In this document: piece by piece, positions 2,500 to 42,088 of the stretch
Layout: each line of letters begins with the position of its first letter
Numbering within the stretch: the first letter of the stretch is position 1
Assembly: GCF_003325375.1 (NCBI RefSeq)
Contig: NZ_CP030862.1
Span: 186,001 to 250,000, forward strand
From: Streptomyces globosus
GTDB taxonomy: Bacteria > Actinomycetota > Actinomycetes > Streptomycetales > Streptomycetaceae
Length of the DNA: 64,000 bases
Direction of reading: 5' to 3'
Made by a program: the position numbers and the translations under genes
Notes under the pieces: model-generated
Database searches by the model: none
What the model saw: only the letters and a program-made list of their open reading frames with translations
Told to the model about the DNA's origin: nothing

Positions 2500-2871
2500 C
2501 GCAGGCAGGACGCAGGGGCCGACCGGTGCGAACGACCGGCCGGTCCCTGCGGCATGCCCGGGGGCGGGCCTCGGACGGCCGACCGCGGCCCGGCCGTCGC
2601 GGTGTATGCATGCGGTTTTTCACCGGACAGGCGTCCCGGCGCCGTATTGGCCGAAAATATTCAGTCGGCGGGAGGGAATGTCGCTCTTTTTGGGATTGTC
2701 GGGTGTCGGGGCGGCCTGAAATTCAGCTGAAACAGTTCGCACCGGCGGGTCTCGGCCACAAGGGAGCCGCCGGCCCCCGGGGCGCCCGCCCCCTTGCTGT
2801 GAACGGGGTCGCGGGGCGAAACGGGGGCGCCGGCAAATCGGAGAAGTGAATTCCGGTTGTGTGGGAAACCG
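2500..2871. other. Non-coding stretch with a low-GC patch
   Basis: No convincing gene on either strand. Bases 2608-2700 are clearly AT-richer than the surroundings (runs such as GGTTTTTCACC, AAAATATTC, CTCTTTTTGG), consistent with a regulatory region or the edge of transferred DNA in front of the biosynthetic operon. Confidence 0.5.
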
Positions 2872-2901
2872 TTGACAGCTGCTGAGCAGGCTTGCGATGT
2901 T
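2872..2901 (+). promoter_or_regulatory. Possible sigma-70-type promoter of the ATP-grasp/radical SAM operon
   Basis: TTGACA at 2872-2877 followed, 17-18 bases on, by CGATGT/GATGTT, about 60 bases before the first ATP-grasp start. The -35 hexamer is a consensus match; the -10 is weak. Start-site mapping would settle it. Confidence 0.4.
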
Positions 2902-2957
2902 TCTCACCGCGCCGGTCGAACGAATGGTCGGCGAGCGGTACGGGGGAAGTAGGTGCA

Positions 2958-4193
2958 GTGGGGGCGGCAGATGGAATGCGGCATGACCGGCACGTGCCGG
3001 GCCGGAATCAGCCGGCGGACGGGGGCGGTGAGACGGTCCTCGTGATCGTCGGGGCCAATCCGACCGTCGCCCGGGAGGCAGCGGCCCTGCCCGCCGAGTC
3101 GGTGCACGTGCAGCTGCCCGGCGCGCCTGCCCTCGACCCGGGGGCCAGGGTCCTCACCGCCGACTTCCTGGACCTGCCCGCCTTCCTCGCCTTCACCGAC
3201 GAGGTCCTGCGGCCGCTGGCGCCGGCCGCCGTCGTCTCGCTCACCGAGCTGGGCCTGGAGCCGGCCGCCCTGGCGGCCCGCCGGCTCGGCGTCGCCGGCG
3301 TCGACCCGGCCGCCGTACGGGCCACCCGCGACAAGCTGGAGATGCGGCGCATCCTGGAGCGCGAGGCCCCGCACCTGAACCCGGCCTTCGCGGCGGGCGA
3401 CGACGCCGAGGCCGTGGCCCGCCTGTTCGCCGCCCACGGCCGGGCGGTGGCCAAGCCGGTGGACGGCGTCGGCAGCACCTCCATCGCCCTGGTCGAGGGC
3501 ATCGACGCACTCCCCGCCGACCGCCGCACGGCCGCCACCCTGATCGAGCAGTTCGCCGAGGGGCGCGAGTTCAGCGTCGAGGCCCTGTCGGCGGCCGGTC
3601 GGCACACCGTCCACGGCATCGCCGAGAAGGGCACCACCGACGGGTTCATCGAGGTCAGCCACATGATGCCGCCGCCGTCCCTGGACGCGCGCCGGCAGGA
3701 GCTGGTCGCCCGTGCCGTCGGCGAGCTGCTCGACGCCCTCGGCGTCACCGACGGCCCCAGCCACACCGAGGTCAAGGTCGACGGCGACAAGGTCGTCGTG
3801 ATCGAGACCCACACCCGCCTCGGCGGCGACGGCATCGCCGACCTGGTCCGCCTCACCACCGGCGTCGAGTGGCGCCGCGCCGCCCTCGGCTGGGCCGTCG
3901 GCGCCGAGGTCGTCCGGGGGCCCGCCGCGGCGGCCGCGGCCGCCACCGTCTTCCTCACCGCCCCGCCCGGGCGGGTGACGGCCGTCGCGCCGCCGCCCGT
4001 ACTCGCCCACGGGGACGTCCACACCTGGGACGTGTCCGTCCGCCCGGGCGACCCGGTCGGTGCCCTGCGCTCCTCCTCGGACCGGCTGGGCATGGCCGTC
4101 CTGACCGCAGCGGACACCGACGCATGCGCGGCAGCCGTCACGGAGCTGATCGGCCACCCGGTGGTCACCACCGCACCCGATCCGAACCTCTGA
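2958..4193 (+). CDS. ATP-grasp ligase, first of two in a biosynthetic operon
   Basis: About 411 residues from GTG 2958, chosen because GGGGGAAG lies 8 bases upstream; ATG 2976 is an alternative. The fold order is that of the ATP-grasp superfamily: an N-terminal Rossmann-like domain (VLVIVGANPTVAREAA), a central ATP-binding domain with AVAKPVDGVGSTSIALV (lysine plus glycine-rich loop), the hinge LIEQFAEGREFSVEAL, then the metal site VVVIETHTRLGGDG, in which the usual Asn of E-x-N is Thr, as in some carnosine-synthase-like members. Such enzymes activate a carboxylate as acyl phosphate and join it to an amine. It is followed at 96 bases by a radical SAM gene and then a second ATP-grasp gene, so peptide or amide bond formation in a natural product pathway is likely. 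Confidence 0.85.
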   Translation: MGAADGMRHDRHVPGRNQPADGGGETVLVIVGANPTVAREAAALPAESVHVQLPGAPALDPGARVLTADFLDLPAFLAFTDEVLRPLAPAAVVSLTELGLEPAALAARRLGVAGVDPAAVRATRDKLEMRRILEREAPHLNPAFAAGDDAEAVARLFAAHGRAVAKPVDGVGSTSIALVEGIDALPADRRTAATLIEQFAEGREFSVEALSAAGRHTVHGIAEKGTTDGFIEVSHMMPPPSLDARRQELVARAVGELLDALGVTDGPSHTEVKVDGDKVVVIETHTRLGGDGIADLVRLTTGVEWRRAALGWAVGAEVVRGPAAAAAAATVFLTAPPGRVTAVAPPPVLAHGDVHTWDVSVRPGDPVGALRSSSDRLGMAVLTAADTDACAAAVTELIGHPVVTTAPDPNL

Positions 4194-4288
4194 CGAGCAC
4201 CCCGCACGTCCGGGGGCACGGCCCCGCGCGGCCCGTCACACCGTCACTTCTCCACCGATCACGCCACCGCAACCGCAGGGGGGAACAC

Positions 4289-5542
4289 ATGTCTGTCCAG
4301 AACGCGCCCATTTCCTACGATTTCCACGGAGACGCCCCGTTCTCGATGCCCTTCAAGGACATCAAGCCCGAGGACATCCACATCTACCTCGACCTCGACA
4401 CCAAGGTAGGCAAGAACACCTGCGGCCAGAAGTGCACGCACTGCTGGTTCGTCAACTACGAGAAGGTCTACGACAAATCCTTCGCGATGGAGGAGGGCCC
4501 CCGCATCCTGGAAGGCCTCCAGTCGCACGGCTACCACGTCTACCCCCGCTACGTGGACAGCTTCGCCTACGACGGCGAGTTCATGCGCCTCTACGGCCCC
4601 GCCAACAACCGGGAGTTCCGCCAGGAAGCCGACCACACGCCCACCGAGACGATGGAGAAGGGCGACGCCTGGACCAGCGGCCGCCCCCTGCTCGCGGACA
4701 ACTGGACCGAGCTCCTCGACCTGGCCGTCAAGAACGGCTACGGCACCATCTCCATCACCTACCACGGCGTGATCGACGAGAACCTGCAGGTCACCGACCA
4801 CAAGACGTACCCCATCAAGGGCGTCTTCTCCGGCGCGGAGACCGAGGAGGTGCTGCGCCGCATAGCCGAGTACAACAAGGGCGTCGCCCCCGAGGACGCC
4901 TTCCGCGTCAACATCGGCGTCACCATCGGCCGCCACAACCACGGCCGCACCTCCCTGGAGCGCTACGCCCACTACTTCAACAACCTCGGCGTCGACACCG
5001 TCCGCTTCAACAACTTCACCGACCACGGCGGACGCCACCCCGAGCTGCGCCTGACGCGCGAGGAGATCGAGCAGGCGTACCGCGACTTCAAGTGGGTCCA
5101 CGAGACGATCCCGCTCCGCTTCCAGCTCGGCGTCAGCGAGGACTTCGGCACCTTCGGCATCAAGGCCATGGGCTTCCCCTCCCACGTCGGCTGGTGCCGC
5201 GCCGGCCGCCAGCTGTTCGCCGCCATCCCGGCCCAGGAGGAGGTCCTCTCCGACAGCCCCGCGGGCCGCCGCGAGAAGATCGGCGACGTCGTCGGCTGCG
5301 TCAACACCTTCGAGCCGCACCTCGGGATCCTCGTCCGCACGGTCACCACCGGCGAGGACGGCGAGCACACCGCCTACGACGTCGAGTTCGACCACGACGC
5401 GATCGAGGCCTTCACCGCCAAGCGCCTCTCCGGCGTCTACAAGGACGGCTGCTTCGCCACCGAGCTGTCCGAGGAGCTCGGCCTGATCTCCCGCGTCCCC
5501 CAGCGGCGCCGGCTGCCGCTCCTCGTCGACGCGCAGTCCTGA
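4289..5542 (+). CDS. Radical SAM enzyme of the biosynthetic operon
   Basis: 417 residues from ATG 4289, 5 bases after a GGGGGGAA ribosome site. The [4Fe-4S]-binding Cx3CxxC motif is CGQKCTHC with Cys45, Cys49 and Cys52, preceded by a strand typical of the radical SAM barrel (DIHIYLDLDTKVG). Further cysteines occur in GWCRAG (about 303), VGCVNT (about 337) and DGCFAT (about 387); they might hold an auxiliary cluster, but no SPASM motif is obvious. The substrate is unknown. Placement between two ATP-grasp genes and upstream of sulfurtransferase and C-S lyase genes suggests radical modification of an amino acid or dipeptide, possibly with sulfur chemistry; that is inference. No leader-peptide gene is visible, which argues against a RiPP. 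Confidence 0.88.
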   Translation: MSVQNAPISYDFHGDAPFSMPFKDIKPEDIHIYLDLDTKVGKNTCGQKCTHCWFVNYEKVYDKSFAMEEGPRILEGLQSHGYHVYPRYVDSFAYDGEFMRLYGPANNREFRQEADHTPTETMEKGDAWTSGRPLLADNWTELLDLAVKNGYGTISITYHGVIDENLQVTDHKTYPIKGVFSGAETEEVLRRIAEYNKGVAPEDAFRVNIGVTIGRHNHGRTSLERYAHYFNNLGVDTVRFNNFTDHGGRHPELRLTREEIEQAYRDFKWVHETIPLRFQLGVSEDFGTFGIKAMGFPSHVGWCRAGRQLFAAIPAQEEVLSDSPAGRREKIGDVVGCVNTFEPHLGILVRTVTTGEDGEHTAYDVEFDHDAIEAFTAKRLSGVYKDGCFATELSEELGLISRVPQRRRLPLLVDAQS

Positions 5543-5621
5543 CGCCGCGGCCCCGCCGCAGCTCCGATGCCGTCCTGACGCCGTCCCGACGCCGTCCTGA
5601 CCCGAGAGAAAGACCGCCGCG

Positions 5622-6848
5622 ATGCGCCACGTCCTCGTCTTCGCCAAGACGCCCCACTCCAAAACCCCGTACGACCAGTGGCTGGCCGGCTCGGGGATCA
5701 CCCCGGTCATCGTGACCGCGACGGAGTACGCGGCGGGATACTCCCACCTCCCGCACGTGCACGCCTTCGACGCGTACGACACCAACCAGCTCGTCGAGAA
5801 GACCGCGCTTCGCCTGGCCCGCGAGTTCGCGGTCGAGGCGGTCTTCGCCCGTGCCGAGGCGGACGTCGTACGGGCCGCGCAGCTGCGGGAGCTGCTCGGC
5901 CTGCCCGGCCAGCACACCGCGAGCGCGCTCGCCTTCCGCGACAAGGTCGTCATGAAGGACCACCTCGCGGGCGGGCCCGTCGAGATCCCCGCCTACCGGC
6001 GGCTCGACTCGGCATACACCGCGCTCGGATTCGTCGCCGAGCACGGCTACCCGGTCGTCATCAAGCCGGTGTCCGAGTCGGGCTCGCTGGGCGCGGCGAT
6101 CATCCGCGACGAGGCGGAGCTGGACGCGTACCTGGCCAGCCCGTGGCGCGGCTCCAGCGAGGTCGAGGCGTTCGTCCCCGGCCAGATGTACCACGTGGAC
6201 GGGCTGGTCGCGGGCGGCGAGGTGGTCTTCGTCCACCCCTTCCGCTACCTCCACGACTGCCTGTCCTTCCGGGACAACGACTGGGTGGCCAACCTGCCGC
6301 TCACCCCTCAGGACCCGGCGTACGACCGGCTGGTCAAGGCGGCGCGGGCGGTCCTCGCCGAGCTGCCGACCCCGCCGCAGACCGCCTTCCACGCCGAGTT
6401 CTGGATCACTCCGGACGACCGGCTGGTCTTCTGCGAGATCGCCAGCCGCACCGGCGGCGGCATGATCAGCTCGATGGTGCGGCACGCCTTCGGCATCGAC
6501 CTGGACAAGGAGTGGCTGTACGCGGAGTGCGGCCTGCCCCCGACACTCGGCACCCCCGCGTACCGGCCCGCCGGGGCGCTGTGCATCCCGCCGCAGAACG
6601 GCGTGCTGGAGCAGCTCCCGGCCGCCGGGGCGGGCACGGACCGGCCCGGGTGCGTCCGCGAGGCGATGCTGACCGGGACGGTCGGCCAGGAGTTCCACGG
6701 CGGCGTCAAGTCCGGGCTGTTCCTGGCCGGCTATGTGGTCGACGGGGACACCGAGGAGGATGTGGCGGCCAACCTCGAACGCGTGGCGCGCTGGTTCTCC
6801 GACAACACCCGCTGGCGGCCCGCCGACTCCTCCGGAGGCACCGCATGA
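5622..6848 (+). CDS. ATP-grasp ligase, second of two in the operon
   Basis: 408 residues from ATG 5622, preceded by GAGAGAAAG. N-terminal Rossmann-type domain (HVLVFAKTPHSKTPYD), then the substrate region ALAFRDKVVMKDHL, the ATP-grasp core YPVVIKPVSESGSLGAAII (lysine and glycine-rich loop near residues 145-165), the hinge VEAFVPGQMYHVDGLV, and the metal-binding FCEIASRTGGG, where the usual E-x-N is E-x-A-S. Large C-terminal part of about 110 residues. It resembles carnosine-synthase/amino-acid ligase members that condense free amino acids. Its stop overlaps the next start (ATGA), the first of three 4-base overlaps, so genes from here to 10229 form one translationally coupled unit. Confidence 0.88.
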   Translation: MRHVLVFAKTPHSKTPYDQWLAGSGITPVIVTATEYAAGYSHLPHVHAFDAYDTNQLVEKTALRLAREFAVEAVFARAEADVVRAAQLRELLGLPGQHTASALAFRDKVVMKDHLAGGPVEIPAYRRLDSAYTALGFVAEHGYPVVIKPVSESGSLGAAIIRDEAELDAYLASPWRGSSEVEAFVPGQMYHVDGLVAGGEVVFVHPFRYLHDCLSFRDNDWVANLPLTPQDPAYDRLVKAARAVLAELPTPPQTAFHAEFWITPDDRLVFCEIASRTGGGMISSMVRHAFGIDLDKEWLYAECGLPPTLGTPAYRPAGALCIPPQNGVLEQLPAAGAGTDRPGCVREAMLTGTVGQEFHGGVKSGLFLAGYVVDGDTEEDVAANLERVARWFSDNTRWRPADSSGGTA

Positions 6849-7753
6849 ACGACGCGACCGCATCCCCCGCCCCTGCTGCGGGAACTGCCGACGGCGGCCT
6901 GCCCGGCCCCCTCGTCTCCGCCGACTGGCTCGCCGCGCGGCTCGGGGAGGGCGCGGGCACCGTCCTCTTCGACGCCTCCGTCGGCGCCCACCGCGGCGCC
7001 GCCCTGCGCATCCCCGGGGCCCGGCCCTTCGACCTCGACGGCGACCTGTCCGACCACACCTCCGCCGTACCGCACACCATGCCCGGCGCCCCGCAGTTCA
7101 CCGAGGCCATGCGCGCGCTCGGCGTGCACGACACCGACACCGTCGTCGTCTACGACGCGCAGGGCATCTACTCCAGCGCCCGCGCCTGGTGGATGCTGCG
7201 CGCCATGGGCTTCGACCGGGTCGCCGTCCTCGACGGCGGCCTGCCCGCCTGGACCGCCGCCGGCCACCCCGCCGAGCCCGTGGCCGCCGCGTACGACGGC
7301 CCCCGCGGCGACTTCACCGCCCGGCCCCGGCCCGGCCTGCTCGTGGACGCCGACACCGTCGCCGCCGCCCTCGCCGACCCGGCCGCCGCCGTCCTCGACG
7401 CCCGCACCCGCGAGCGGTACGCCGGCACCGCACCCGAGCCGCGCCCCGGCCTGCGCGGAGGCCACATGCCGGGCTCCGCCAGCCTGCCCTTCGGGGAACT
7501 CCAGCGGGACGGCGGGCTGATGCGCCCCGCGGACGAGCTGCGGACGGCGTTCGCCGCCGCTGCCGGGGAGCGCGAGCGGCTGTACTTCAGCTGCGGATCC
7601 GGCGTCACCGCCTGCGTCCTCGCACTCGGCGCCACCCTCGCCGGGTACGGCGGTCTCGCCGTGTACGACGGCTCGTGGAGCGAGTGGGGCATGCCCTCCG
7701 ACCGCCCGGTCGCCACCGGGGCGGGGGCGGCCGGAGGGAGCGGCTCACCGTGA
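6845..7753 (+). CDS. 3-mercaptopyruvate-type sulfurtransferase (tandem rhodanese)
   Basis: 302 residues from ATG 6845 with two rhodanese domains. The first (about 25-135; FDASVGAHRG, VVVYDAQGIYSSARAWWML, VLDGGLPAW) is catalytically inactive, as usual. The second (about 165-285) carries CGSGVTAC with the persulfide-forming Cys near residue 248; CG[ST]GVT is the 3-mercaptopyruvate form, not the CRxGxR loop of thiosulfate sulfurtransferase. Linker EPRPGLRGGHMPGSASLPF is also typical. It can transfer a sulfane sulfur from a mercapto acid to an acceptor. Sitting between an ATP-grasp and an MFS gene with 4-base overlaps on both sides, it is probably the sulfur donor of this pathway, not housekeeping. 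Confidence 0.9.
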   Translation: MNDATASPAPAAGTADGGLPGPLVSADWLAARLGEGAGTVLFDASVGAHRGAALRIPGARPFDLDGDLSDHTSAVPHTMPGAPQFTEAMRALGVHDTDTVVVYDAQGIYSSARAWWMLRAMGFDRVAVLDGGLPAWTAAGHPAEPVAAAYDGPRGDFTARPRPGLLVDADTVAAALADPAAAVLDARTRERYAGTAPEPRPGLRGGHMPGSASLPFGELQRDGGLMRPADELRTAFAAAAGERERLYFSCGSGVTACVLALGATLAGYGGLAVYDGSWSEWGMPSDRPVATGAGAAGGSGSP

Positions 7754-9036
7754 CCGGGAAGCGGACCGGCCGCGGCGGCGGACCGGCGGCTGCATGGCGC
7801 ACGTTCACCGGGCTGCCGTCCGGCCTCAAGGCCCTGATCGGCCTGTCCTTCGTCGTCGCCCTCGGCAGTTACATGGTCACCCCGTTCATCGGGGTGCTCA
7901 TGGTCGAGGCCGTCGGCATGGACGTCCGGGTGGCCGGTGTCCTGGTGGCGGTGGCCACCTTCATCCAGTTCGGCGGGAGCATCCTCGGCGGCCCGGTCGT
8001 GGACCGGCTCGGGCTCAAGCGGACGATGGTGCTCGCGCTGGCCCTCCGCACGGTCGGGCTGGTGCTGTTCGGCCTGGCCGTCGCGGTGCCCTGGGTCGCG
8101 TACCCGGCCGTCGTCCTCGTGGCGGCCGGCCCGGCGCTGTACCTCCCCGCGAACAAGGCGTACATCGTCACCAGCGTGTCCGACACCCTGCGCCCGCTCT
8201 TCCTCGGCGTGAGCAGCGCCGCCCTCAACGCGGGCATGGGGCTCGGACCGCTGCTCGCCGCGCTGCTCGTCGACGCCGACCCGGTGCTGCTGCTGATCGG
8301 CCTCGCCGCGCTCTTCGCGCTGATCACCGCGGCGCACCAGGCCGCCCTGAAGCCGGTGGAACGCCGACCGGCCGAGCCGCCGGCGGAGGCGGCCCCGGTC
8401 GGGGCCGCGGCCGGGACCCGGGGGAGGCGGGCGGCGCTCCGCTCCGCGCTCCGCCCGATCCTCTTCACGTCCCTCGCCTTCTACGTCTACTTCTTCTTCC
8501 AGAGCTTCATGGGCCTGTACGCGGCCGGGGTCGGCAACATCCAGGTCCTCGGCTGGGTCATGCTGCTCAACTGCGCCATGGTGGTCGTGCTCCAGCCGGT
8601 GTGGGCCGACCGCATCGCCCGTGCCGACTACCGCCTGCTGGTGGCCGGCTCGTTCGCGCTGATGGCCCTCGGTACGGCGGCCATGGCCCTCGGCAGCATC
8701 CCCGCCCTGCTGGCGGGCACCGCCCTCTTCACGCTGGGCGAGATCTTCCTCTTCCTGCGCTGCGACCTGGAACTTGTCGACCGGGTGCCGGGCAATCCGG
8801 CCTTCGCCTTCGGCGTCCAGCGGCTGACCGCCGGCATCGGCGGACTCCTCGCCGGTGTCGTCGGCGGCTTCGTCTTCGCCCACTACCAGGCGGCAGGCGA
8901 CATCGACGCGTTCTGGCTGGCGGTGGCGGCCCAGTCCGCGGGCGCGGCCCTCCTCGCCGCCCTGCTGGGCGCCGGCCGCCGTACCGCCGCGCAGGCACCG
9001 ACCGAACCCGAACAGGCAGTGGCGGCGACCCGATGA
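7750..9036 (+). CDS. MFS transporter, likely product exporter
   Basis: 428 residues from GTG 7750, overlapping the previous stop (GTGA). About 12 hydrophobic segments in two bundles with a basic central loop near residues 200-235. The inter-helix 2/3 signature appears as GGPVVDRLGLKR. Residues 17-40 (FTGLPSGLKALIGLSFV) start the first helix. The location inside a coupled biosynthetic operon, directly followed by the lyase gene, suggests export of, or self-resistance to, the product. There is no cofactor or substrate signature to define what it moves. Confidence 0.88.
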   Translation: MTGKRTGRGGGPAAAWRTFTGLPSGLKALIGLSFVVALGSYMVTPFIGVLMVEAVGMDVRVAGVLVAVATFIQFGGSILGGPVVDRLGLKRTMVLALALRTVGLVLFGLAVAVPWVAYPAVVLVAAGPALYLPANKAYIVTSVSDTLRPLFLGVSSAALNAGMGLGPLLAALLVDADPVLLLIGLAALFALITAAHQAALKPVERRPAEPPAEAAPVGAAAGTRGRRAALRSALRPILFTSLAFYVYFFFQSFMGLYAAGVGNIQVLGWVMLLNCAMVVVLQPVWADRIARADYRLLVAGSFALMALGTAAMALGSIPALLAGTALFTLGEIFLFLRCDLELVDRVPGNPAFAFGVQRLTAGIGGLLAGVVGGFVFAHYQAAGDIDAFWLAVAAQSAGAALLAALLGAGRRTAAQAPTEPEQAVAATR

Positions 9037-10229
9037 CACACGAGGCACCCCTCTCCCCGGAGACACAGCTCGTCCACGCCGGCTCCGACCCGGGCCGGCA
9101 GGGGGGCTACGTCAACCCGCCCGTCCACCGCGCCTCCACGGCCCTCTACCGCGACACGGCCGAGATGGACGCCTCCCAGGCCGACCCGCTCAAGCGCGGC
9201 ACCCCGGTCTACGGCCGCTTCGGCACCCCGACCGGCCGCGCCTTCGAGGAGGCCCTGACCGTCCTGGAGGGCGGCCACGCCACGGTGGCGACCTGCTCCG
9301 GCCTCGCGGCGATCACCACGGCGATCCTCGCGTACGTCCGGGCCGGCGACCACATCCTCGTCAGCGACTCCGTCTACCTGCCGACCCGCAAGTTCTGCGA
9401 CTCGCTCGCCGCCCTGGGCGTGGAGACCGAGTACTACGACCCGTGCGCGACCGGCGCCGCGATCGACGCGCTGATCCGCCCCCGCACCCGCCTGCTCTAC
9501 CTGGAATCCCCCGGCTCGACCACCTTCGAGGTCCAGGACATCCCGGCGATCACCGAGGTGTGCCGGGCCCGCGGGGTGGCCACCATCGCGGACAACACCT
9601 GGGCGACCCCCGCCTTCTGCCGGCCGCTGGAGCTGGGCGCGGGCGTGGACGCGGTCGTCCACTCCGCGACGAAGTACCTGACGGGGCACGCGGACAGCAT
9701 CCTCGGTGCGATCGTCTGCACGCAGGAGAGCTACCCGCTCATCCGCGGCGCGGCCATCCGCCTCGGCCAGTGCGCGGGCGCCGACGACCTCTACCTGGGC
9801 CTGCGCGGCCTGCGCACCCTGGGCCCCCGGCTGGCCCGCCACCAGGAACAGGCCCTGGACCTGGCCCGCTGGACCGCCGCCCAGGACGGCGTGGCATCCG
9901 TCCTCCACCCCGCCCTCCCGGAGGACCCGGGCCACACCCTGTGGCGCCGCGACTTCACGGGCGCGGCGGGCCTGTTCGGCGTGGAGCTGGACCCGCGGTT
10001 CACGAAGCCCGCCGTGGAGGCCATGCTGAACGCCTTCCGCATCTTCGGCCTGGGCCACAGCTACGGCGGCTACGAAAGCCTGGTCGTCCCCGCCGACCCC
10101 GCCGCCGGCCGCCTCCCGGGCACCTGGTCGGGCCGCGGCCCCCTGATCCGCGTGCACGTCGGCTTCGAGTCCCCGGCCGACCTGAGGGAAGACCTCCGGA
10201 CAGCCCTCAAAGCCCTCCACACCGCCTGA
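9033..10229 (+). CDS. Cystathionine beta-lyase-like PLP enzyme (MetC/Cys-Met metabolism family)
   Basis: 398 residues from ATG 9033, overlapping the MFS stop (ATGA). Family landmarks: TQLVHAGSDPGRQGGYVNPPVHRAST at the N-terminus, YGRFGTPTGRAFEEAL (Tyr and Arg contacting the cofactor phosphate), SGLAAITTAILA, ADNTWATP (Asp binding the pyridine N), HSATKYLTGHAD with the Schiff-base Lys214, and a C-terminal SYGGYESL. The SYGG ending is closer to MetC beta-lyases than to gamma-synthases. Such enzymes break or make C-S bonds in thioether amino acids. With the adjacent mercaptopyruvate sulfurtransferase it points to a sulfur-containing product, though an elimination step on another substrate is equally possible. 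Confidence 0.88.
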   Translation: MTHEAPLSPETQLVHAGSDPGRQGGYVNPPVHRASTALYRDTAEMDASQADPLKRGTPVYGRFGTPTGRAFEEALTVLEGGHATVATCSGLAAITTAILAYVRAGDHILVSDSVYLPTRKFCDSLAALGVETEYYDPCATGAAIDALIRPRTRLLYLESPGSTTFEVQDIPAITEVCRARGVATIADNTWATPAFCRPLELGAGVDAVVHSATKYLTGHADSILGAIVCTQESYPLIRGAAIRLGQCAGADDLYLGLRGLRTLGPRLARHQEQALDLARWTAAQDGVASVLHPALPEDPGHTLWRRDFTGAAGLFGVELDPRFTKPAVEAMLNAFRIFGLGHSYGGYESLVVPADPAAGRLPGTWSGRGPLIRVHVGFESPADLREDLRTALKALHTA

Positions 10230-29805: not shown

Positions 29806-29832
29806 AAGCCCCAGGCCGCTGACCTGGGGCTT
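29806..29832 (-). terminator. Hairpin paired with att remnant 3
   Basis: AAGCCCCAGG and CCTGGGGCTT arms around CCGCTGA, directly left of att remnant 3; same relative place as the native tRNA terminator. Confidence 0.7.
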
Positions 29833-29840
29833 TGTCGTGG

Positions 29841-29881
29841 AGCGGATGACGGGAATCGAACCCGCGCTATAAGCTTGGGAA
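29841..29881 (-). repeat. att remnant 3, perfect copy of the tRNA-Gly 3' half
   Basis: All 41 bases match 42018-42058 of the tRNA-Gly gene, from discriminator base through the anticodon. To the right follows the arm with CTGACCTGCGG and, at about 29970-30010, ACCGCCCCTACTGGCACG then TTGTGGCACGG, shared almost base for base with remnant 4. No integrase gene adjoins it. Confidence 0.9.
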
Positions 29882-30018
29882 TCACCCGGCGCTTGCGCCG
29901 TGGAATCGCATCTGACCTGCGGAAACGTTAGCCTGGCGTCGCGTCTTCGCTGTCTCCCCGGGTTCGTTGTTGTCCGCTGCTGACCGCCCCTACTGGCACG
30001 TTGTGGCACGGCGGTGGA

Positions 30019-32130: not shown

Positions 32131-32340
32131 TCAGGGCCAGGAGCCCGTGGGCCGGCGATGGGCGATGTGCTCGGGCGGCCCGGGGTTGCCCTGGCCGGGG
32201 GGACGGCTGAGGGAGGGGTAGGGGTCGCTGAAGCGGTGGGCCGCTATGCGTGCGTCGTGCTGGGCGTTGAGCCGGTGGATCAGGCGTGTGCCGAGCGCGA
32301 TCAGGAGAGCGCCTGCCAGGAGGGTGATCACGGTTTCCAT
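32131..32340 (-). CDS. Small single-pass membrane protein
   Basis: 69 residues from ATG 32340. One N-terminal hydrophobic segment (TVITLLAGALLIALGTRLI) and a Pro/Gly/His-rich cytoplasmic tail (FSDPYPSLSRPPGQGNPGPP). It lies 4 bases behind the DUF5994 copy 3 stop, so it is co-transcribed with it. No homologue is present in the other DUF5994 locus. Confidence 0.6.
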   Translation of the reverse strand: METVITLLAGALLIALGTRLIHRLNAQHDARIAAHRFSDPYPSLSRPPGQGNPGPPEHIAHRRPTGSWP

Positions 32341-36137: not shown

Positions 36138-36377
36138 ATGCTTGCCGACGTTCGGGCGTACCGCTTGGCGGAGGTGCGGAAGCGTCAGCACATCACGCAG
36201 AACCAGGTCGCGGAGATCTTGGGTGCCACTCAGGGCCGCGTCTCAGCCATCGGCTTGGGTGCTTTCGTCGGGGCGGGTCATGCGGGCGGTGACCTGGCGG
36301 ATTCCGTCGGCTGCGTGGCGGACGGCGGTGATGGGCGCATCGAGATCGTCGGGTGCGACGCCACCTCGACGGTGTAG
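36138..36377 (+). pseudogene. Broken HTH (HigA-like) antitoxin
   Basis: ATG 36138 opens MLADVRAYRLAEVRKRQHITQNQVAEILGATQGRVSAI, the exact start of a common actinobacterial XRE/HigA antitoxin (MLxDVRAYRLAEVR). After VSAI the expected E-RGE helix is replaced by unrelated residues and only GGDGRIEIVG recalls the usual C-terminus (GGRLEIVADFG), so an internal frameshift pair or indel is likely. No toxin partner is seen. The rest of 35993-36402 holds no gene. Confidence 0.6.
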
Positions 36378-36402
36378 CCGGAGCCGGCCGGGAGGCCGGG
36401 GC

Positions 36403-37761
36403 ATGCCGAGCCAGGGAGCGTTACCGGACGTGATCGCAGAATCGTTTCTTTACCACTCGATCCTCGGAAACCTCCAGGGGCCGCACGGTGGGTCCTCGCT
36501 CACCGCGCCTCGCCCGCCCGCGCTGGTTGCCCGGATCCCAGGCGTCGGGGACGCCTGGGCGAACGCCCGGTCGCTGCTGCGCCGCCGCGTCGACGAGGCA
36601 CACGATGTCGTCGATGCCGTGCTTGCCGAGGCACCCGCCGTGTTCCCGGACGTGCCGCCGGCCCCAGCGGACCGCCGGTCACTGGAGGAGCACGCGCGCA
36701 CGTTGCTGCGCACCTACCTCGACCCCTTCATGGCCCTGGTGTTCAACGGCGAGCAATCGGTCCGCTTCGCGGTCAGCGGCAAGCGGCTGAAGAAGGTGGC
36801 CCGCCGACTGCACGACGCGCTCGAGGAGTGCGCCGCGGCATTCGAGCCCGCTGAGCGTCTTGCCGGGGCACTGGCGGAGGAGTACCCGCACTTCCTTCCC
36901 GACACGTACGACGGGGTGTCGGCCGCGCTCCTCGTGCTCGCCGCGTGGGACGCCTCGCACCGGCACCCCACCCGGGAACTCACGGAGAGTCTGTTGCGGA
37001 GCGTCGAGCGGGACGGCCGTATCAGACTTGGACTCTTCGTGTGCCCGCCCGTGGACTTCACTCGGCTCCATGGCGAGCGGCCCGAGCTGTACGTGCGGGA
37101 TCACATGCACGGGAGCGTGCTCAGCCGTCTGGCCGGGCGTCTGCGGGAGCTGTTCCGTGGCCTGGAGGGCGCGCAGGTCGAGGTCGAACTCCGGGCTATC
37201 GTCGGCGACACCGACGAGGACGACTACCTCTGGTACGGCGTGCCAGCCCCCGCACACCTCGACCGGGTGGCTCTGGACGCACGCAGGGAAGCGCTGGTCA
37301 CGACGGTCGCGAACTACCTGACCGAGGAAGTATCCGCTCCTCGAGGGGGCCAGCCGAGAATCTTCCGCGGCACGGCCCTCACCGTGCAGCGACTCTCCGC
37401 GATGGCACCCTCAGCGGAGTCCCGGAACGTGTACGCGGCCGTACTGGCGAACCCGCTCGCGTATTTCGACCGCCGCGACGTTGAAGCGGAGAAGGGCATC
37501 ATGCGGGGGCTGTGGGAGCCGGGCTCCTACTACGAGGGGCTGTCCCAGCCCGATGACGCCACCCTCGCCGACATCGTCGTACGCAAGTTCGCGACCTACG
37601 CGATGCAGGGCCGGATGCTGCACGAACTCGACCCCGACATGGTGCTGGTCCAGACCGAACGCCCCCCGTTGCTACGCGCCCGGATGCTGAACGCGGGCTG
37701 GGACCAAACCGGCCGTTCCCCCCTCCCGACGGTCGAATTCTTCGAGCCCGAAGACGGCTGA
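36403..37761 (+). CDS. Unknown 452-residue protein next to a PGM1-like ligase
   Basis: 452 residues from ATG 36403, GGGAGG at 8 bases. I recognise no family. Visible features: VIAESFLYHSILGNLQGPHGG at the start; a helical first half with ARTLLRTYLDPFMALVFNGEQS and KRLKKVARRLHDALEECAAAF; strands GRIRLGLFVCPPVDF and VEVELRAIVGDTDEDDYLWYGVP; a DLxxR-type helix; then SRNVYAAVLANPLAYFDRRDVE and a conserved-looking ending FATYAMQGRMLHELDPDMVLVQTERPPLLRARML. Soluble, no signal or membrane segment. 57 bases before the peptide-ligase gene, so probably co-transcribed and part of the same pathway, perhaps supplying or modifying a substrate. That role is inferred only from position. Confidence 0.75.
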   Translation: MPSQGALPDVIAESFLYHSILGNLQGPHGGSSLTAPRPPALVARIPGVGDAWANARSLLRRRVDEAHDVVDAVLAEAPAVFPDVPPAPADRRSLEEHARTLLRTYLDPFMALVFNGEQSVRFAVSGKRLKKVARRLHDALEECAAAFEPAERLAGALAEEYPHFLPDTYDGVSAALLVLAAWDASHRHPTRELTESLLRSVERDGRIRLGLFVCPPVDFTRLHGERPELYVRDHMHGSVLSRLAGRLRELFRGLEGAQVEVELRAIVGDTDEDDYLWYGVPAPAHLDRVALDARREALVTTVANYLTEEVSAPRGGQPRIFRGTALTVQRLSAMAPSAESRNVYAAVLANPLAYFDRRDVEAEKGIMRGLWEPGSYYEGLSQPDDATLADIVVRKFATYAMQGRMLHELDPDMVLVQTERPPLLRARMLNAGWDQTGRSPLPTVEFFEPEDG

Positions 37762-37818
37762 CCACGCCGGGGCGCGTCCCGACGCCCAACGATGAACACG
37801 AGAAGAGCGACCTGACAC

Positions 37819-39126
37819 ATGCCGAAGATCATCATTCTGAACGTGGGCACGGCGCACGCGCTCGGCGACCACACCTCCAGCACCCACCCCATCACCAGGT
37901 CCGGCTGGCGGCATGCCTGGTTCGCGGAGCGGGGGGACATCATCGTCAGCCCCGTCGCCGTGGACGGGGACTTCCTGCGGTACTTGGCCGGGACGATGGG
38001 GTTCGACCCGGACACCGTCACGGTCCTCAGCCGGGAACGGCTCGTCACGGACGAGTTCCTGATGAGCGACGACGTTCTCGGGGAACTGGGCGAGCTGACC
38101 GCCGACGGCGCAGCCTGGCAGCTGATGCCGTGCTTCTGGACGCAGGGCGTCGCCGATCTGGCCGCGCGGCTCGGCATCGACTCCCGGGCCGGACTCGCCT
38201 TCGCCGCCCAGCGCGGGTCGGACCTGCTCAACCGAAAGACCCACTTCCGGCAGTTTGCCGCAGGAGCCGGCCTGCCGCTGCCTGAAGGCTCCGTCGCACG
38301 GACACCGTATGAGCTGGCCAGGGCGATCGAACGGCACCTGCCGCTTACCGGGACGGTGATCGTCAAGCAGGACGACGGCGCCGGGGGCCTGGGCAACCTG
38401 ACGCTGACGCGGGGAGAGACGGGGCCGCTGCCCGGCTCCCGCGAGACCCTGAAGGTCGGCGACGACCTCCCCGCGCTGGCCGACGAGGTGTGGGCCGCGC
38501 TGGCAGACGAACTGAGCCACGGCCTCGTGGTGGAGAGCTACCACTCCTCCACCCGCCAGTTCTACCTGGAGTACGTCATCGGTGACGACGGCGTACCCAC
38601 ATTCCTCGACAGCGGCGAGATACGGCTGCGCCCGGACGCCGACCCGGGGTCCACCGAACTCGTCTGGGTCGGCCTGGACATACCGGCCGCCCTGCCGCCG
38701 GCGCTGAGCGCCCAGGCCGTGCACCACTCCCTGCGGCTGGCCGAACTCACCGCGCAGGTCGGCTATCGCGGCCACATCAACATCGACGCCATCGCCACCG
38801 CCTCCGGCGACCTGGTGTTCAACGAGGTCAACGCTCGGTGGGGCGGGGGACTCGTCGCCCACGACATCTGTGAACGTCTGCTCGGCAGCGGGTACGCGGA
38901 CCGCCACGTGGCCGCCACCGTCCGGGACGTGCCCCCGGCCCCGTTGGATGCCGTCCTGCGGACCCTTCGTGAGGAGCGACTCCACTTCAGCCGCGATTCG
39001 AGTGAGGGAGTGTTCGTCCTCGCCTGTGACCCGTCCCTGGTCACCCCCATGGAATGCCTGGTCGTGGGGGCGACGAGGGACCGGGTGCGGGAGATCGAGG
39101 CACAGCTGAGGAAGGCCCTGGCATGA
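37819..39126 (+). CDS. ATP-grasp peptide ligase, PGM1-related
   Basis: 435 residues from ATG 37819. N-terminal domain: IIILNVGTAHALGDHTS, SGWRHAWFAERGDIIVSPVAVDGDFLRYLAGTMGFDPDTVTVL, as in the PGM1 (pheganomycin ligase) family. ATP-grasp core: LLNRKTHFRQFAAGAGLPLPEG, GTVIVKQDDGAGGLGNLTL (Lys and Gly loop), LVVESYHSSTRQFYLEYVI, and the metal motif VFNEVNARWGGGLVAHDI with a canonical E-x-N. PGM1-type enzymes couple a nonproteinogenic amino acid to a peptide. The following exporter gene starts in its stop codon (ATGA) but is truncated. Confidence 0.85.
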   Translation: MPKIIILNVGTAHALGDHTSSTHPITRSGWRHAWFAERGDIIVSPVAVDGDFLRYLAGTMGFDPDTVTVLSRERLVTDEFLMSDDVLGELGELTADGAAWQLMPCFWTQGVADLAARLGIDSRAGLAFAAQRGSDLLNRKTHFRQFAAGAGLPLPEGSVARTPYELARAIERHLPLTGTVIVKQDDGAGGLGNLTLTRGETGPLPGSRETLKVGDDLPALADEVWAALADELSHGLVVESYHSSTRQFYLEYVIGDDGVPTFLDSGEIRLRPDADPGSTELVWVGLDIPAALPPALSAQAVHHSLRLAELTAQVGYRGHINIDAIATASGDLVFNEVNARWGGGLVAHDICERLLGSGYADRHVAATVRDVPPAPLDAVLRTLREERLHFSRDSSEGVFVLACDPSLVTPMECLVVGATRDRVREIEAQLRKALA

Positions 39127-39760
39127 GGGCGAGCCCCCTGCGCCAGCGTGCCTTCCGCCGGCTCTTCCTGGGACGGTCGTTCTCCCTCGTCGGTGACGCC
39201 GTTATCCCCGCCGCCCTCGCTCTGGCCGTGCTGCGCGCCACGGGATCGGTCTCGTCGCTTGCCTTCGTCCTCGGGTGCGCGATGGTACCCAAGCTGCTCC
39301 TGCTGCCGGTGGGCGGCGTCATCGCTGACCGGTTCAACCCACGGACCGTTGCGGTCGGCACCGATCTTGTCCGATGCGGCATGCAACTGCTCGTCGGGCT
39401 GCAGCTCCTCGGCACCGAACCGTCGATCGGGCTCATTGCCGCAGCCGAGGCGGTGGGCGGCGCCGCGTCGGCGTTCGCCACTCCCGCGTTGTCTCCGCTC
39501 GTCGGGGCCACGGTGGGCAACGAGGACCGGCAGCGCGCCAACTCCCTGCTGGGTACGGCAGGAAGCATCGCCCGGCTGGGTGGGCCCGGGCTCGCCGGAG
39601 TGCTGATCTGGTCGGCCGGGCCGGGCAGGGCCTTTGTTCTCGACGCGGTGACCTTTGCGGCCAGCGCGGCTCTGCTGGCCGGTATCCGGATCCCCCACGC
39701 CACCGCGCCGAAACGATCCTTCCGTAGAGGTTCCCTGCACACCGACCTGACCAGGCATTT
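39123..39760 (+). pseudogene. Truncated MFS exporter
   Basis: Begins at ATG 39123 in the ligase stop (ATGA) and encodes the first half of an enterobactin-exporter-like MFS protein: AFRRLFLGRSFSLVGDAVIPAALALAVLRATGSV, LLLPVGGVIADRFNPRTVAVGTDLVRC, LGTAGSIARLGGPGLAGVLI. After about residue 212 (LLAGIRIP...) similarity to MFS ends and the frame runs on into sequence of the next gene, so helices 7-12 are missing. The breakpoint is near 39760. Coupling shows it once served the peptide ligase. Confidence 0.75.
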
Positions 39761-39796
39761 ACCCTCAACGACCCCTTGGCCGCCAGGAGACGCCCC

Positions 39797-40294
39797 ATGT
39801 TCGTATCCGCCGCGCACCGCTCTTCCGTTTCCGCTTCCGGACTGTCCGGAACCGGCCAGAAGGATGCCGAAACCGTCTGGTCCGTCGTCTCCGGGCTGTA
39901 CGCGGCACACGCGCACGGTGATCGGGGGAAGGTGGACGAACGGCTGGATCCCGAAGCCACGATCTGGCACTCGGAGGCGGAGGAGCTCCTGCTGGGCAGG
40001 AAGGATCTCGACCGGCTCCGCGCCGGGCGCGACGCCACGGCCGCCGGTCCGGCGGTGGCGGCGTACCGGGCCCACGACCCGGTGACCGACGTGTCAGGCC
40101 ACATGGCCGTGGTGCGCTACTGGCTCGAGGTCCAGTACGTCCCCGCGGCGGACGGAGCGACGCTGTGCCCCGAGCGGGTGCGGAACACGGCGGTGCTGCG
40201 TCGCAGCGCTGGCGTCTGGCGCATCGTCCACCTTCATGAAGAGGTGTGGGTGGCGGGCGGCATGCCTGACATGACCGCCGGCACGCCGAAATAA
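39797..40294 (+). CDS. SnoaL/NTF2-like protein
   Basis: 165 residues from ATG 39797 with AGGAGA upstream. After a 20-residue lead, KDAETVWSVVSGLYAAHAHGDRGKVDERLDPEATIWHSEAEELLLGRKDL gives the family helix-helix-strand start, and TDVSGHMAVVRYWLEVQYVP, TAVLRRSAGVWRIVHLHEEVW the final strands. The NTF2-like cone fold serves as isomerase, hydratase or simple binding domain; no dyad is clear, so the activity is open. It is the last gene before att remnant 4. Confidence 0.82.
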   Translation: MFVSAAHRSSVSASGLSGTGQKDAETVWSVVSGLYAAHAHGDRGKVDERLDPEATIWHSEAEELLLGRKDLDRLRAGRDATAAGPAVAAYRAHDPVTDVSGHMAVVRYWLEVQYVPAADGATLCPERVRNTAVLRRSAGVWRIVHLHEEVWVAGGMPDMTAGTPK

Positions 40295-40529
40295 CGAAAC
40301 GGAACCGCGTCATGCAGGGGCAGCGTCTGCCGCAGTGCGACCACGCGGCCGCCGGCACTGCCCCCGCCCACGCTGAGGTGACGCAGATCACTCTAGATGT
40401 GCCTCGCCATCTGGGGCGGCGACGCGCCTGAGCGGCCCGCGTGGTGCGCCGAAGGGTCTGCGGTCAGGGCATTTGTGGGAGTTGGGGCACGCGGAGGGCG
40501 CGGCGAGGCTGGAGAGGTTTGGACAACGA

Positions 40530-40560
40530 CGAAGGCCCAGGTCGCTGACCTGGGCCTTCG
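40530..40560 (-). terminator. Copy of the tRNA-Gly terminator beside att remnant 4
   Basis: CGAAGGCCCAGGT and ACCTGGGCCTTCG arms around CGCTG, identical to 41981-42011. The matching sequence continues left to about 40481 (GTTGGGGCACG region). The rest of 40295-40776 contains the att core and arm; no gene. Confidence 0.8.
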
Positions 40561-40566
40561 TGTCTG

Positions 40567-40607
40567 AGCGGATGACGGGAATCGGACCCGCGCTATAAGC
40601 TTGGGAA
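40567..40607 (-). repeat. att remnant 4 (tRNA-Gly 3' half)
   Basis: 40 of 41 bases match the tRNA 3' half. The right arm (40608-40740) has CTGACCTGCGAATACG and ends GACCGCTGTTTACC, then GCCCCTACTGGCACGTTG and TGGCACGGC, nearly the same as at remnant 3. Confidence 0.88.
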
Positions 40608-40776
40608 TCACTCGGTACTTGGGTAGGCGCACAGTCTCTGACCTGCGAATACGACCGCTGACGATGCCGTTATGGCTGCTTCGGTGCGACCCTTGTTGAC
40701 CGCTGTTTACCGCCCCTACTGGCACGTTGTGGCACGGCTTCCGCGCCGGCTGGATGCGCGAGGGTGCTGTCGCAGG

Positions 40777-41701: not shown

Positions 41702-41980
41702 GGGAGCAGTGTGGACCCCACGTCAATAAATCGCAAGGGCTACTTGTCATTAAGGGCCTCGTCCGAAAGGAAAGGCCTTGCGTCGAGGGTGACACCAAGT
41801 CCAGCGGCTGGTGTGTGGGTGAGTGGGCGACCTGCCGGCCGTCCTCTCCGTCGAGGTCGAGCGGCACCTTGGTTCGCGGAGTAGGGGTGCCGGTGGCGCG
41901 CGAAGGCGCTGTGGGCAGGATATTCCTGCGAGTTGGGGCACGTGGAGGGCGCGGAGACCCCTGAGAGGTCTAGACAACGA

Positions 41981-42011
41981 CGAAGGCCCAGGTCGCTGAC
42001 CTGGGCCTTCG
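41981..42011 (-). terminator. Terminator of tRNA-Gly
   Basis: A 13-bp stem CGAAGGCCCAGGT/ACCTGGGCCTTCG with loop CGCTG, 7 bases past the tRNA 3' end. Copied at 40530-40560. Confidence 0.85.
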
Positions 42012-42017
42012 TTGAAG

Positions 42018-42088
42018 AGCGGATGACGGGAATCGAACCCGCGCTATAAGCTTGGGAAGCTCATGTTCTACCATTAAACTACATCCGC
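42018..42088 (-). tRNA. tRNA-Gly (anticodon CCC)
   Basis: 71 nt on the minus strand. Acceptor GCGGATG pairs with CATCCGC, discriminator U; D-arm GTTT-AATGGTA-GAAC; anticodon stem TGAGC/GCTTA with loop TTCCCAA, anticodon CCC at 34-36; T-arm GCGGG-TTCGATT-CCCGT. CCA is not encoded. It decodes GGG. The 3' half serves as attB: four further copies lie at 24.8, 28.6, 29.8 and 40.6 kb, all in the same orientation, so the gene has been the target of repeated integration and has stayed intact each time. Confidence 0.95.

Follow-up and report, generated by a model that had tools for sequence, protein, structure and literature searches.

A 64,000-nt stretch of the Streptomyces globosus genome (hereafter the window; 186–250 kb of a 6.86-Mb contig, in a genome of 7.54 Mb and 3 contigs) contains a gene for an orphan protein, a gene for a PGM1-type ATP-grasp peptide ligase, and a broken gene for a major facilitator superfamily (MFS) exporter. 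These genes are the remnant of a larger cluster that has been cut on both sides. We place about even chances on the further reading that they are the middle of a cluster for a metabolite directed against threonyl-tRNA synthetase (ThrRS), of which a fuller version is present in Streptomyces tricolor. In that reading, both the activity of the product and its ThrRS target are predicted.

The fuller locus (L003) is contig 26 of S. tricolor NRRL B-16925, with a length of 10 kb. It encodes an iron/2-oxoglutarate (Fe/2OG) oxygenase similar to TqaL (180–1130), a desaturase-like protein with a PF00487 domain (1127–2059), a GFA protein (2052–2486), a radical S-adenosylmethionine (SAM) protein with generic similarity only (about 2536–3594), the orphan (about 3602–4969), the ATP-grasp ligase (5028–6335), an intact MFS exporter (6332–7594), and a ThrRS on the opposite strand (7677–9764), with the start of a SnoaL-like gene at the right end. 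A simple gene caller was used, and the start codons of neighbor genes are approximate. For the desaturase-like protein, no relative was found in the PDB, and the best NCBIfam match (GntB) is far under the cut-off. The locus supplies the intact three-gene set that the original prediction had suggested looking for in other genomes; beyond the exporter lie the ThrRS gene and then the SnoaL-like gene.

Two blocks of the window are collinear with L003. Positions 36425–39724 correspond to L003 3633–6933 (84%), and positions 39736–39859 correspond to L003 9865–9989 (78%). The blocks are separated by a deletion junction of 11 bases without L003 match (39725–39735), and L003 6934–9864, a segment of ~2.9 kb that includes the 3′ part of the MFS gene and the entire ThrRS gene, has no counterpart in the window. 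The retained 5′ part of the MFS gene (39123–39724, forward strand) comprises ~200 codons, and over the first 200 it is 85% identical to the intact gene of S. tricolor. Its ATG at 39123 overlaps the ligase stop codon as ATGA (39123–39126), and its reading frame continues past the end of homology at 39724 to 40085. This coupling and the breakage of the gene had both been recognized in the original prediction, which put the break near 39760, slightly later than the end of homology. The SnoaL-like/DUF4440 gene (39797–40294, forward strand, 165 aa) matches the end of L003 in its first bases; the remainder of this gene was not found in S. tricolor, and its protein has two relatives in Embleya. The end of the MFS gene and the ThrRS gene are missing together as a single block, and homology picks up directly in the SnoaL-like gene. 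Because the MFS gene is whole in L003, this difference is read as a deletion in the window rather than an insertion in L003.

On the left side, the homology with L003 stops at the orphan start, and the upstream region is not shared. The left edge (36138–36424, forward strand) is unrelated to L003 and contains a 79-aa frame (36138–36377) with weak helix-turn-helix similarity, every match being below Pfam cut-offs; this frame, just left of the orphan, may be what is left of a gene for a regulator or an antitoxin. When the S. globosus genome was searched at the DNA level with all of L003 (40 of 970 candidates scored), nine matches were listed, none of them in L003 1–3632, the segment with the four genes that precede the orphan; divergent homologs would escape this search.

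The junction, judged from the assembly, could also be an error that joined two separate places. Such an error is very improbable given that the 7.54-Mb genome is assembled into 3 contigs, that only 11 bases separate the break from renewed homology in the gene expected to follow, and that S. globosus has neither a second ThrRS nor the missing part of the MFS gene elsewhere in its genome. The original suggestion that the pathway may be silent since the loss of its exporter is right about the exporter and understates the damage: the ThrRS gene is gone as well, and the upstream genes of L003 are unmatched by the DNA search. The pathway is probably dead in the window strain, as it is incomplete despite an intact ligase and orphan. 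Between the window and L003, the ratios of nonsynonymous to synonymous substitution rates are 0.33 for the orphan, 0.22 for the ligase, and 0.21 for the MFS part, with no internal stops. These values fit selection over most of the divergence from L003 and give no date for the loss. The full-length state of the orphan and ligase genes and the purifying selection on them also suit a different explanation, namely that the two genes and the SnoaL-like gene form a small working pathway served by another transporter, and that the additional L003 genes belong to a separate, adjacent cluster. We regard this as decidedly unlikely. Relatives of the Fe/2OG oxygenase, desaturase, and GFA genes adjoin such ligases in other bacteria, which argues that these L003 genes belong with the ligase, and homology starts at the orphan start codon with the upstream region missing.

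If the cluster is indeed directed against ThrRS, the TqaL-like enzyme would convert a valine- or 2-aminobutyrate-like amino acid to an aziridine or a β-hydroxylated, threonine-like residue, and the stand-alone PGM1-type ligase would couple this residue to a second amino acid to give a dipeptide. The desaturase-like, GFA, and radical SAM proteins, together with the orphan, may tailor or extend the product, which the MFS protein would export. The product, or an amino acid freed from it, would act on ThrRS, and the divergent extra ThrRS would protect the producer.

The ligase gene (37819–39126, forward strand, 435 aa) is full length by its domains and motifs, and the assignment to the PGM1 type in the original prediction was correct. 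Its protein matches PreAtp-grasp (E = 8.8e-24, 84.3 bits, cut-off 27.5) and PGM1_C (E = 2.4e-6, 27.4 bits, cut-off 22.5). Among PDB entries, it matches 8ynd (E = 3.6e-80, 273 bits) and PGM1 itself (3wvq; E = 1.2e-32, 116.5 bits). The ATP-grasp motifs VIVKQDD, VVESYH, and FNEVNARWGGG align ungapped with 8ynd and the other ligases (11 others aligned). By sequence, this protein is a PGM1-type ATP-grasp peptide ligase, for which amide-bond formation is predicted.

Ligase matches at E ≤ 1e-40 are present in 13 of 384 Streptomyces genomes with S. globosus included (the genus samples of 392 or 384 genomes and the phylum sample of 396 were each drawn from a larger group). A tree built from 12 selected ligases groups the window ligase with those of L003, L029, L030, L031, L043, and L044 (support 0.998). 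Among the 12 other Streptomyces ligase neighborhoods, one (L031) has a TqaL-like gene and a GFA gene, and two (L029 and L030) have a desaturase gene. The latter two also contain gamma-glutamyltranspeptidase genes (PF01019), and the Rhizobium locus L044 contains an annotated gamma-glutamylcyclotransferase gene, which together hint that ligases of this kind may add glutamate. L029 and L030 are nonribosomal peptide synthetase (NRPS)-like loci in which the ligase, desaturase, and gamma-glutamyltranspeptidase genes occur together.

Among PDB entries, the L003 oxygenase is most similar to TqaL (7eeh; E = 1.5e-112, 59% identity over 288 columns). All nine named substrate-site residues of TqaL (Arg144, Phe168, Arg178, Arg185, Phe187, Phe234, Glu251, Ile343, and Phe345) are identical in the L003 protein, with the numbering set by the sole offset that fits at least six of the nine. 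TqaL is a fungal aziridine synthase of L-valine, and mutants at Phe345 or the use of 2-aminobutyrate as the substrate lead to β-hydroxylation (accessible portions of PMC10764440 and PMC11880133). Because of this dual behavior, the L003 oxygenase could form an aziridine or, alternatively, a residue that resembles threonine.

The association between TqaL-like and ligase genes recurs outside Streptomyces. In four of the nine TqaL-matching plasmid records (PLSDB, in which annotation is incomplete), a PGM1-related ligase gene lies at most 1 kb from the TqaL-like gene; these records are from Paraburkholderia, Rhodococcus, Rhizobium, and Kocuria. The Rhizobium plasmid (L044) has TqaL-like, ligase, desaturase, and GFA genes in consecutive order, the Rhodococcus plasmid (L043) has GFA, TqaL-like, and ligase genes, and the Paraburkholderia plasmid (L042) has TqaL-like and ligase genes together with a type II haloacid dehalogenase gene. 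The four-gene set of the Rhizobium plasmid (L044 7959–12219) adjoins dnd DNA-phosphorothioation genes. On a 6.7-kb Psychrobacter plasmid (L045 2742–4564), the TqaL-like gene is followed directly by a drug/metabolite transporter (DMT) gene.

The ThrRS encoded in L003 is a second, divergent copy within the cluster, and its predicted role is target-copy self-resistance. A protein search found a single, housekeeping ThrRS in S. globosus; in S. tricolor, besides the L003 copy, it found one copy at 67% and a partial match at 45% (L007). The L003 protein has 65% identity to the housekeeping copies of both species, 71.5% to a Tsukamurella homolog, and 70.4, 68.0, and 48.3% to the copies in L050, L051, and L054, respectively. 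The L003 protein differs at two places. The sequence CPFH replaces the CPMH of both housekeeping copies and Tsukamurella; at this third position, L050 and L051 also have F and L054 has H. In addition, the L003 protein has IHRVLFG, whereas six other aligned ThrRS have A in place of V, and the partial copy L007 has S. Both places adjoin positions that we take to be zinc ligands of Escherichia coli ThrRS.

Several points weigh against the overall proposal. The L003 ThrRS keeps AAFYGPK and lacks the Gly463 replacement of ObaO, and a change of Gly463 underlies resistance to obafluorin and borrelidin (accessible text of PMC11252418). Its gene has the opposite orientation and may be a mere neighbor. 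The TqaL–ligase association is incomplete, with no ligase match in five of the nine TqaL-matching plasmid records (Psychrobacter, two Proteus, Azospirillum, and one Streptomyces) and no TqaL-like gene in 11 of the 12 Streptomyces ligase neighborhoods (three of the 12 end early at contig ends). Furthermore, the fuller locus is known from a single 10-kb contig and may extend past either end of it, and the direction of the deletion depends on the MFS gene being whole in L003.

The strand and the absence of a Gly463 change also favor the view that the L003 ThrRS has no part in the pathway and is a stray extra copy that came in along with this region. Extra ThrRS genes do exist without such clusters, as in L050, where the neighbors are MFS and TetR-like frames by eye. 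We consider this view unlikely, if still one to be reckoned with. The gene sits between the MFS and SnoaL-like genes, both of which persist in the window; such a ThrRS is rare, with matches at E ≤ 1e-300 in two of 392 Streptomyces genomes (L050 and L051); and Val at the HRA motif is unseen in the six other ThrRS compared. The extra ThrRS gene in L051 (8242–19501) is beside a modular polyketide synthase, and this locus is possibly responsible for another ThrRS-directed product. Among 700 plasmid records that matched ThrRS, 569 are from Klebsiella; the matches listed are ~41–42% identical, and several are annotated as thrS.

The orphan gene (36403–37761, forward strand) is an open frame of 452 aa from the ATG at 36403. 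As originally noted, its protein has no recognized family: no Pfam match is over the cut-off (best GfcC_N, E = 0.039, 14.6 bits against 22.1), no NCBIfam match was found, the best match among PDB sequences has E = 0.092, and a two-row profile gave no match there. The true start may be the GTG at 36430 (443 aa), because homology with L003 begins at 36425 and an ATG at L003 3638, in frame, aligns with this GTG. When 84,980 species were scanned, with one genome per species and by a method that detects close relatives only, 163 pattern matches yielded L003 as the sole confirmed relative (76% identity over residues 4–452). With four candidates scored per genome, the orphan was found only in S. globosus among the 392 Streptomyces genomes, as was its profile among the 396 phylum genomes, and no match was found among plasmid records. 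One additional weak match in the genus (G282; E = 8.6e-4, 36% over 117 aa) has an internal stop and lies in a region also overlapped by other long frames, and was rejected as chance. Co-occurrence of the orphan with PGM1-like genes, which the original prediction had set beforehand as its test, was found in the one other genome with the orphan and in none of the 12 other Streptomyces ligase neighborhoods, of which L032, L034, and L035 end early at contig ends. The orphan is a rare add-on rather than a usual companion of PGM1-like ligases.

Structure prediction, also part of the original proposal, gave suggestive alignments on a poor model. AlphaFold model 1 has a predicted local distance difference test (pLDDT) score of 44 and a predicted template modeling (pTM) score of 0.41. 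In this model, residues 184–452 align with cyclodipeptide synthase (CDPS) structures (Z up to 10.8 over ~200 residues), PvcA (Z = 9.0), and tyrosyl-tRNA synthetase (TyrRS; Z = 8.2), which are of one fold class and occupy ranks 1–45 of the structural matches. Foldseek ranked the isonitrile synthases PIsnA (E = 3.7e-3) and PvcA (E = 7.3e-3) first and second for the same model, with nothing at E ≤ 0.001. Model 2 is worse, has no strands, and does not reproduce this fold. No sequence-level match of the orphan to CDPS or PvcA was found by Pfam, hhalign, or shuffles. The hhalign probabilities against CDPS (PF16715) and PvcA (PF05141) are 0.1–0.3, compared with 0.2 and 2.3 for the reversed control. 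For the C-terminal part, the PvcA score was reached by 4/60 and 2/60 shuffles and the CDPS score by 27/60 and 10/60, and for CDPS and PvcA compared with each other by 2/60 (using 12 of 26 PvcA and 12 of 29 CDPS sequences). The C-terminal part of the orphan may have the Rossmann fold of class I aminoacyl-tRNA synthetases (the CDPS/PvcA type), which is a lead rather than a finding. Elsewhere in its genome, S. globosus has a genuine CDPS gene (C1:1287828–1288487; PF16715, E = 7.5e-83).

If the orphan has such a CDPS-like fold, it could be a bond-forming enzyme that depends on aminoacyl-tRNA. The L003 ThrRS could then instead be its dedicated supplier, loading tRNA with threonine or a residue resembling it, and the ligase would form the second bond. 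The alignments of model 1 with CDPS, PvcA, and TyrRS agree with this role, and paralogous synthetases serve bacterial peptide synthesis (accessible portion of PMC2922099). We find the supplier role improbable, however, given one poor and one poorer, strandless model, no Foldseek match at E ≤ 0.001, and no sequence support; in addition, the housekeeping ThrRS makes a second copy unnecessary for charging. Returning to ThrRS as the target, the intact locus could represent a new kind of NRPS-free, ThrRS-directed antibiotic pathway. In it, a bacterial TqaL-type enzyme would produce an aziridine or a threonine-mimicking amino acid, the PGM1-type ligase and an orphan of the CDPS/PvcA fold would incorporate it into a short peptide, and a horizontally acquired ThrRS with an altered amino-acid pocket would shield the producer. 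This specific version is unlikely, and we hold just as tentatively its corollary that the window cluster decays after one event removed the exporter end and the resistance gene.

The locus lies between direct repeats derived from tRNA-Gly. The left repeat (29806–30012, core 29851–29881) and the right repeat (40450–40738, core 40577–40607) are joined by a third copy (41901–42088), its core inside the intact tRNA-Gly (CCC) gene from which the repeats derive (42017–42088, reverse strand). None of the three copies is expected by chance. The repeats on both sides support the original description of the genes as island-borne; a scan of the frames in this interval, all but the 69-aa frame at 32131–32340, recognized no integrase. 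The setting is read most simply as an island segment in decay. The three copies, with spacings of ~10.7 kb and ~1.45 kb, mark two integration events, either nested or side by side, next to the intact tRNA-Gly gene. Frames between the repeats include SpoIIE, two DUF5994 proteins, a PRC-barrel protein, and NhaA.

If the proposed ThrRS-directed pathway is correct, TqaL-type chemistry, which is fungal in the accessible portions of the reviews PMC10764440 and PMC11880133, would extend to ligase-made dipeptides of bacteria, and the target, ThrRS, would have been predicted in advance. Moreover, an orphan family of two genomes would gain a testable role, and the window would provide a clear case of a cluster that lost its exporter and presumed resistance gene together. 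No bacterial cluster with TqaL, ATP-grasp, and ThrRS genes was found in literature searches that left subscription journals mostly uncovered, and prior publication (e.g., with 8ynd) is quite possible. Searches on 8ynd and on the bes genes gave nothing useful.

The locus can be compared with several known systems. The ligase resembles PGM1 (3wvq) and 8ynd over its full length and in having both PreAtp-grasp and PGM1_C. The pheganomycin comparison in the original prediction holds for the ligase type and is a weaker parallel than the ligases linked to TqaL-like or desaturase genes. A pheganomycin-like pathway was rejected because the gene neighbors in the window and L003 differ, except for the radical SAM gene in L003, from those in the available part of PMC8939145. 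The likeness of the orphan to CDPS (PF16715) and PvcA (PF05141) is confined to the low-confidence model 1, with no match at the sequence level. In the bes pathway of Streptomyces cattleya, an ATP-grasp ligase and an Fe/2OG enzyme contribute to a threonine analog made as a dipeptide. β-Ethynylserine is known as an antimetabolite of threonine and is incorporated into protein (accessible text of PMC10250548). The likeness to the bes pathway is by description only, and its halogenase and pyridoxal phosphate (PLP)-dependent lyase were not seen in L003. Like the loci of obafluorin and borrelidin producers, L003 pairs biosynthetic genes with an additional ThrRS of divergent sequence. The thrS gene of L054 belongs to a gene set that is presumably of the borrelidin type; the L003 ThrRS has 48.3% identity to this copy and lacks the Gly463 change of ObaO. 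Compared with the fungal TqaL/TqaF/TqaM pathway, the L003 system is bacterial, is joined to an ATP-grasp ligase, and has no dehalogenase in view, and the window has no TqaL-like gene. Nevertheless, L003 has a 59% identical TqaL homolog with the nine named residues, and the Paraburkholderia plasmid pairs a TqaL-like gene with a type II haloacid dehalogenase gene, the class to which TqaF belongs.

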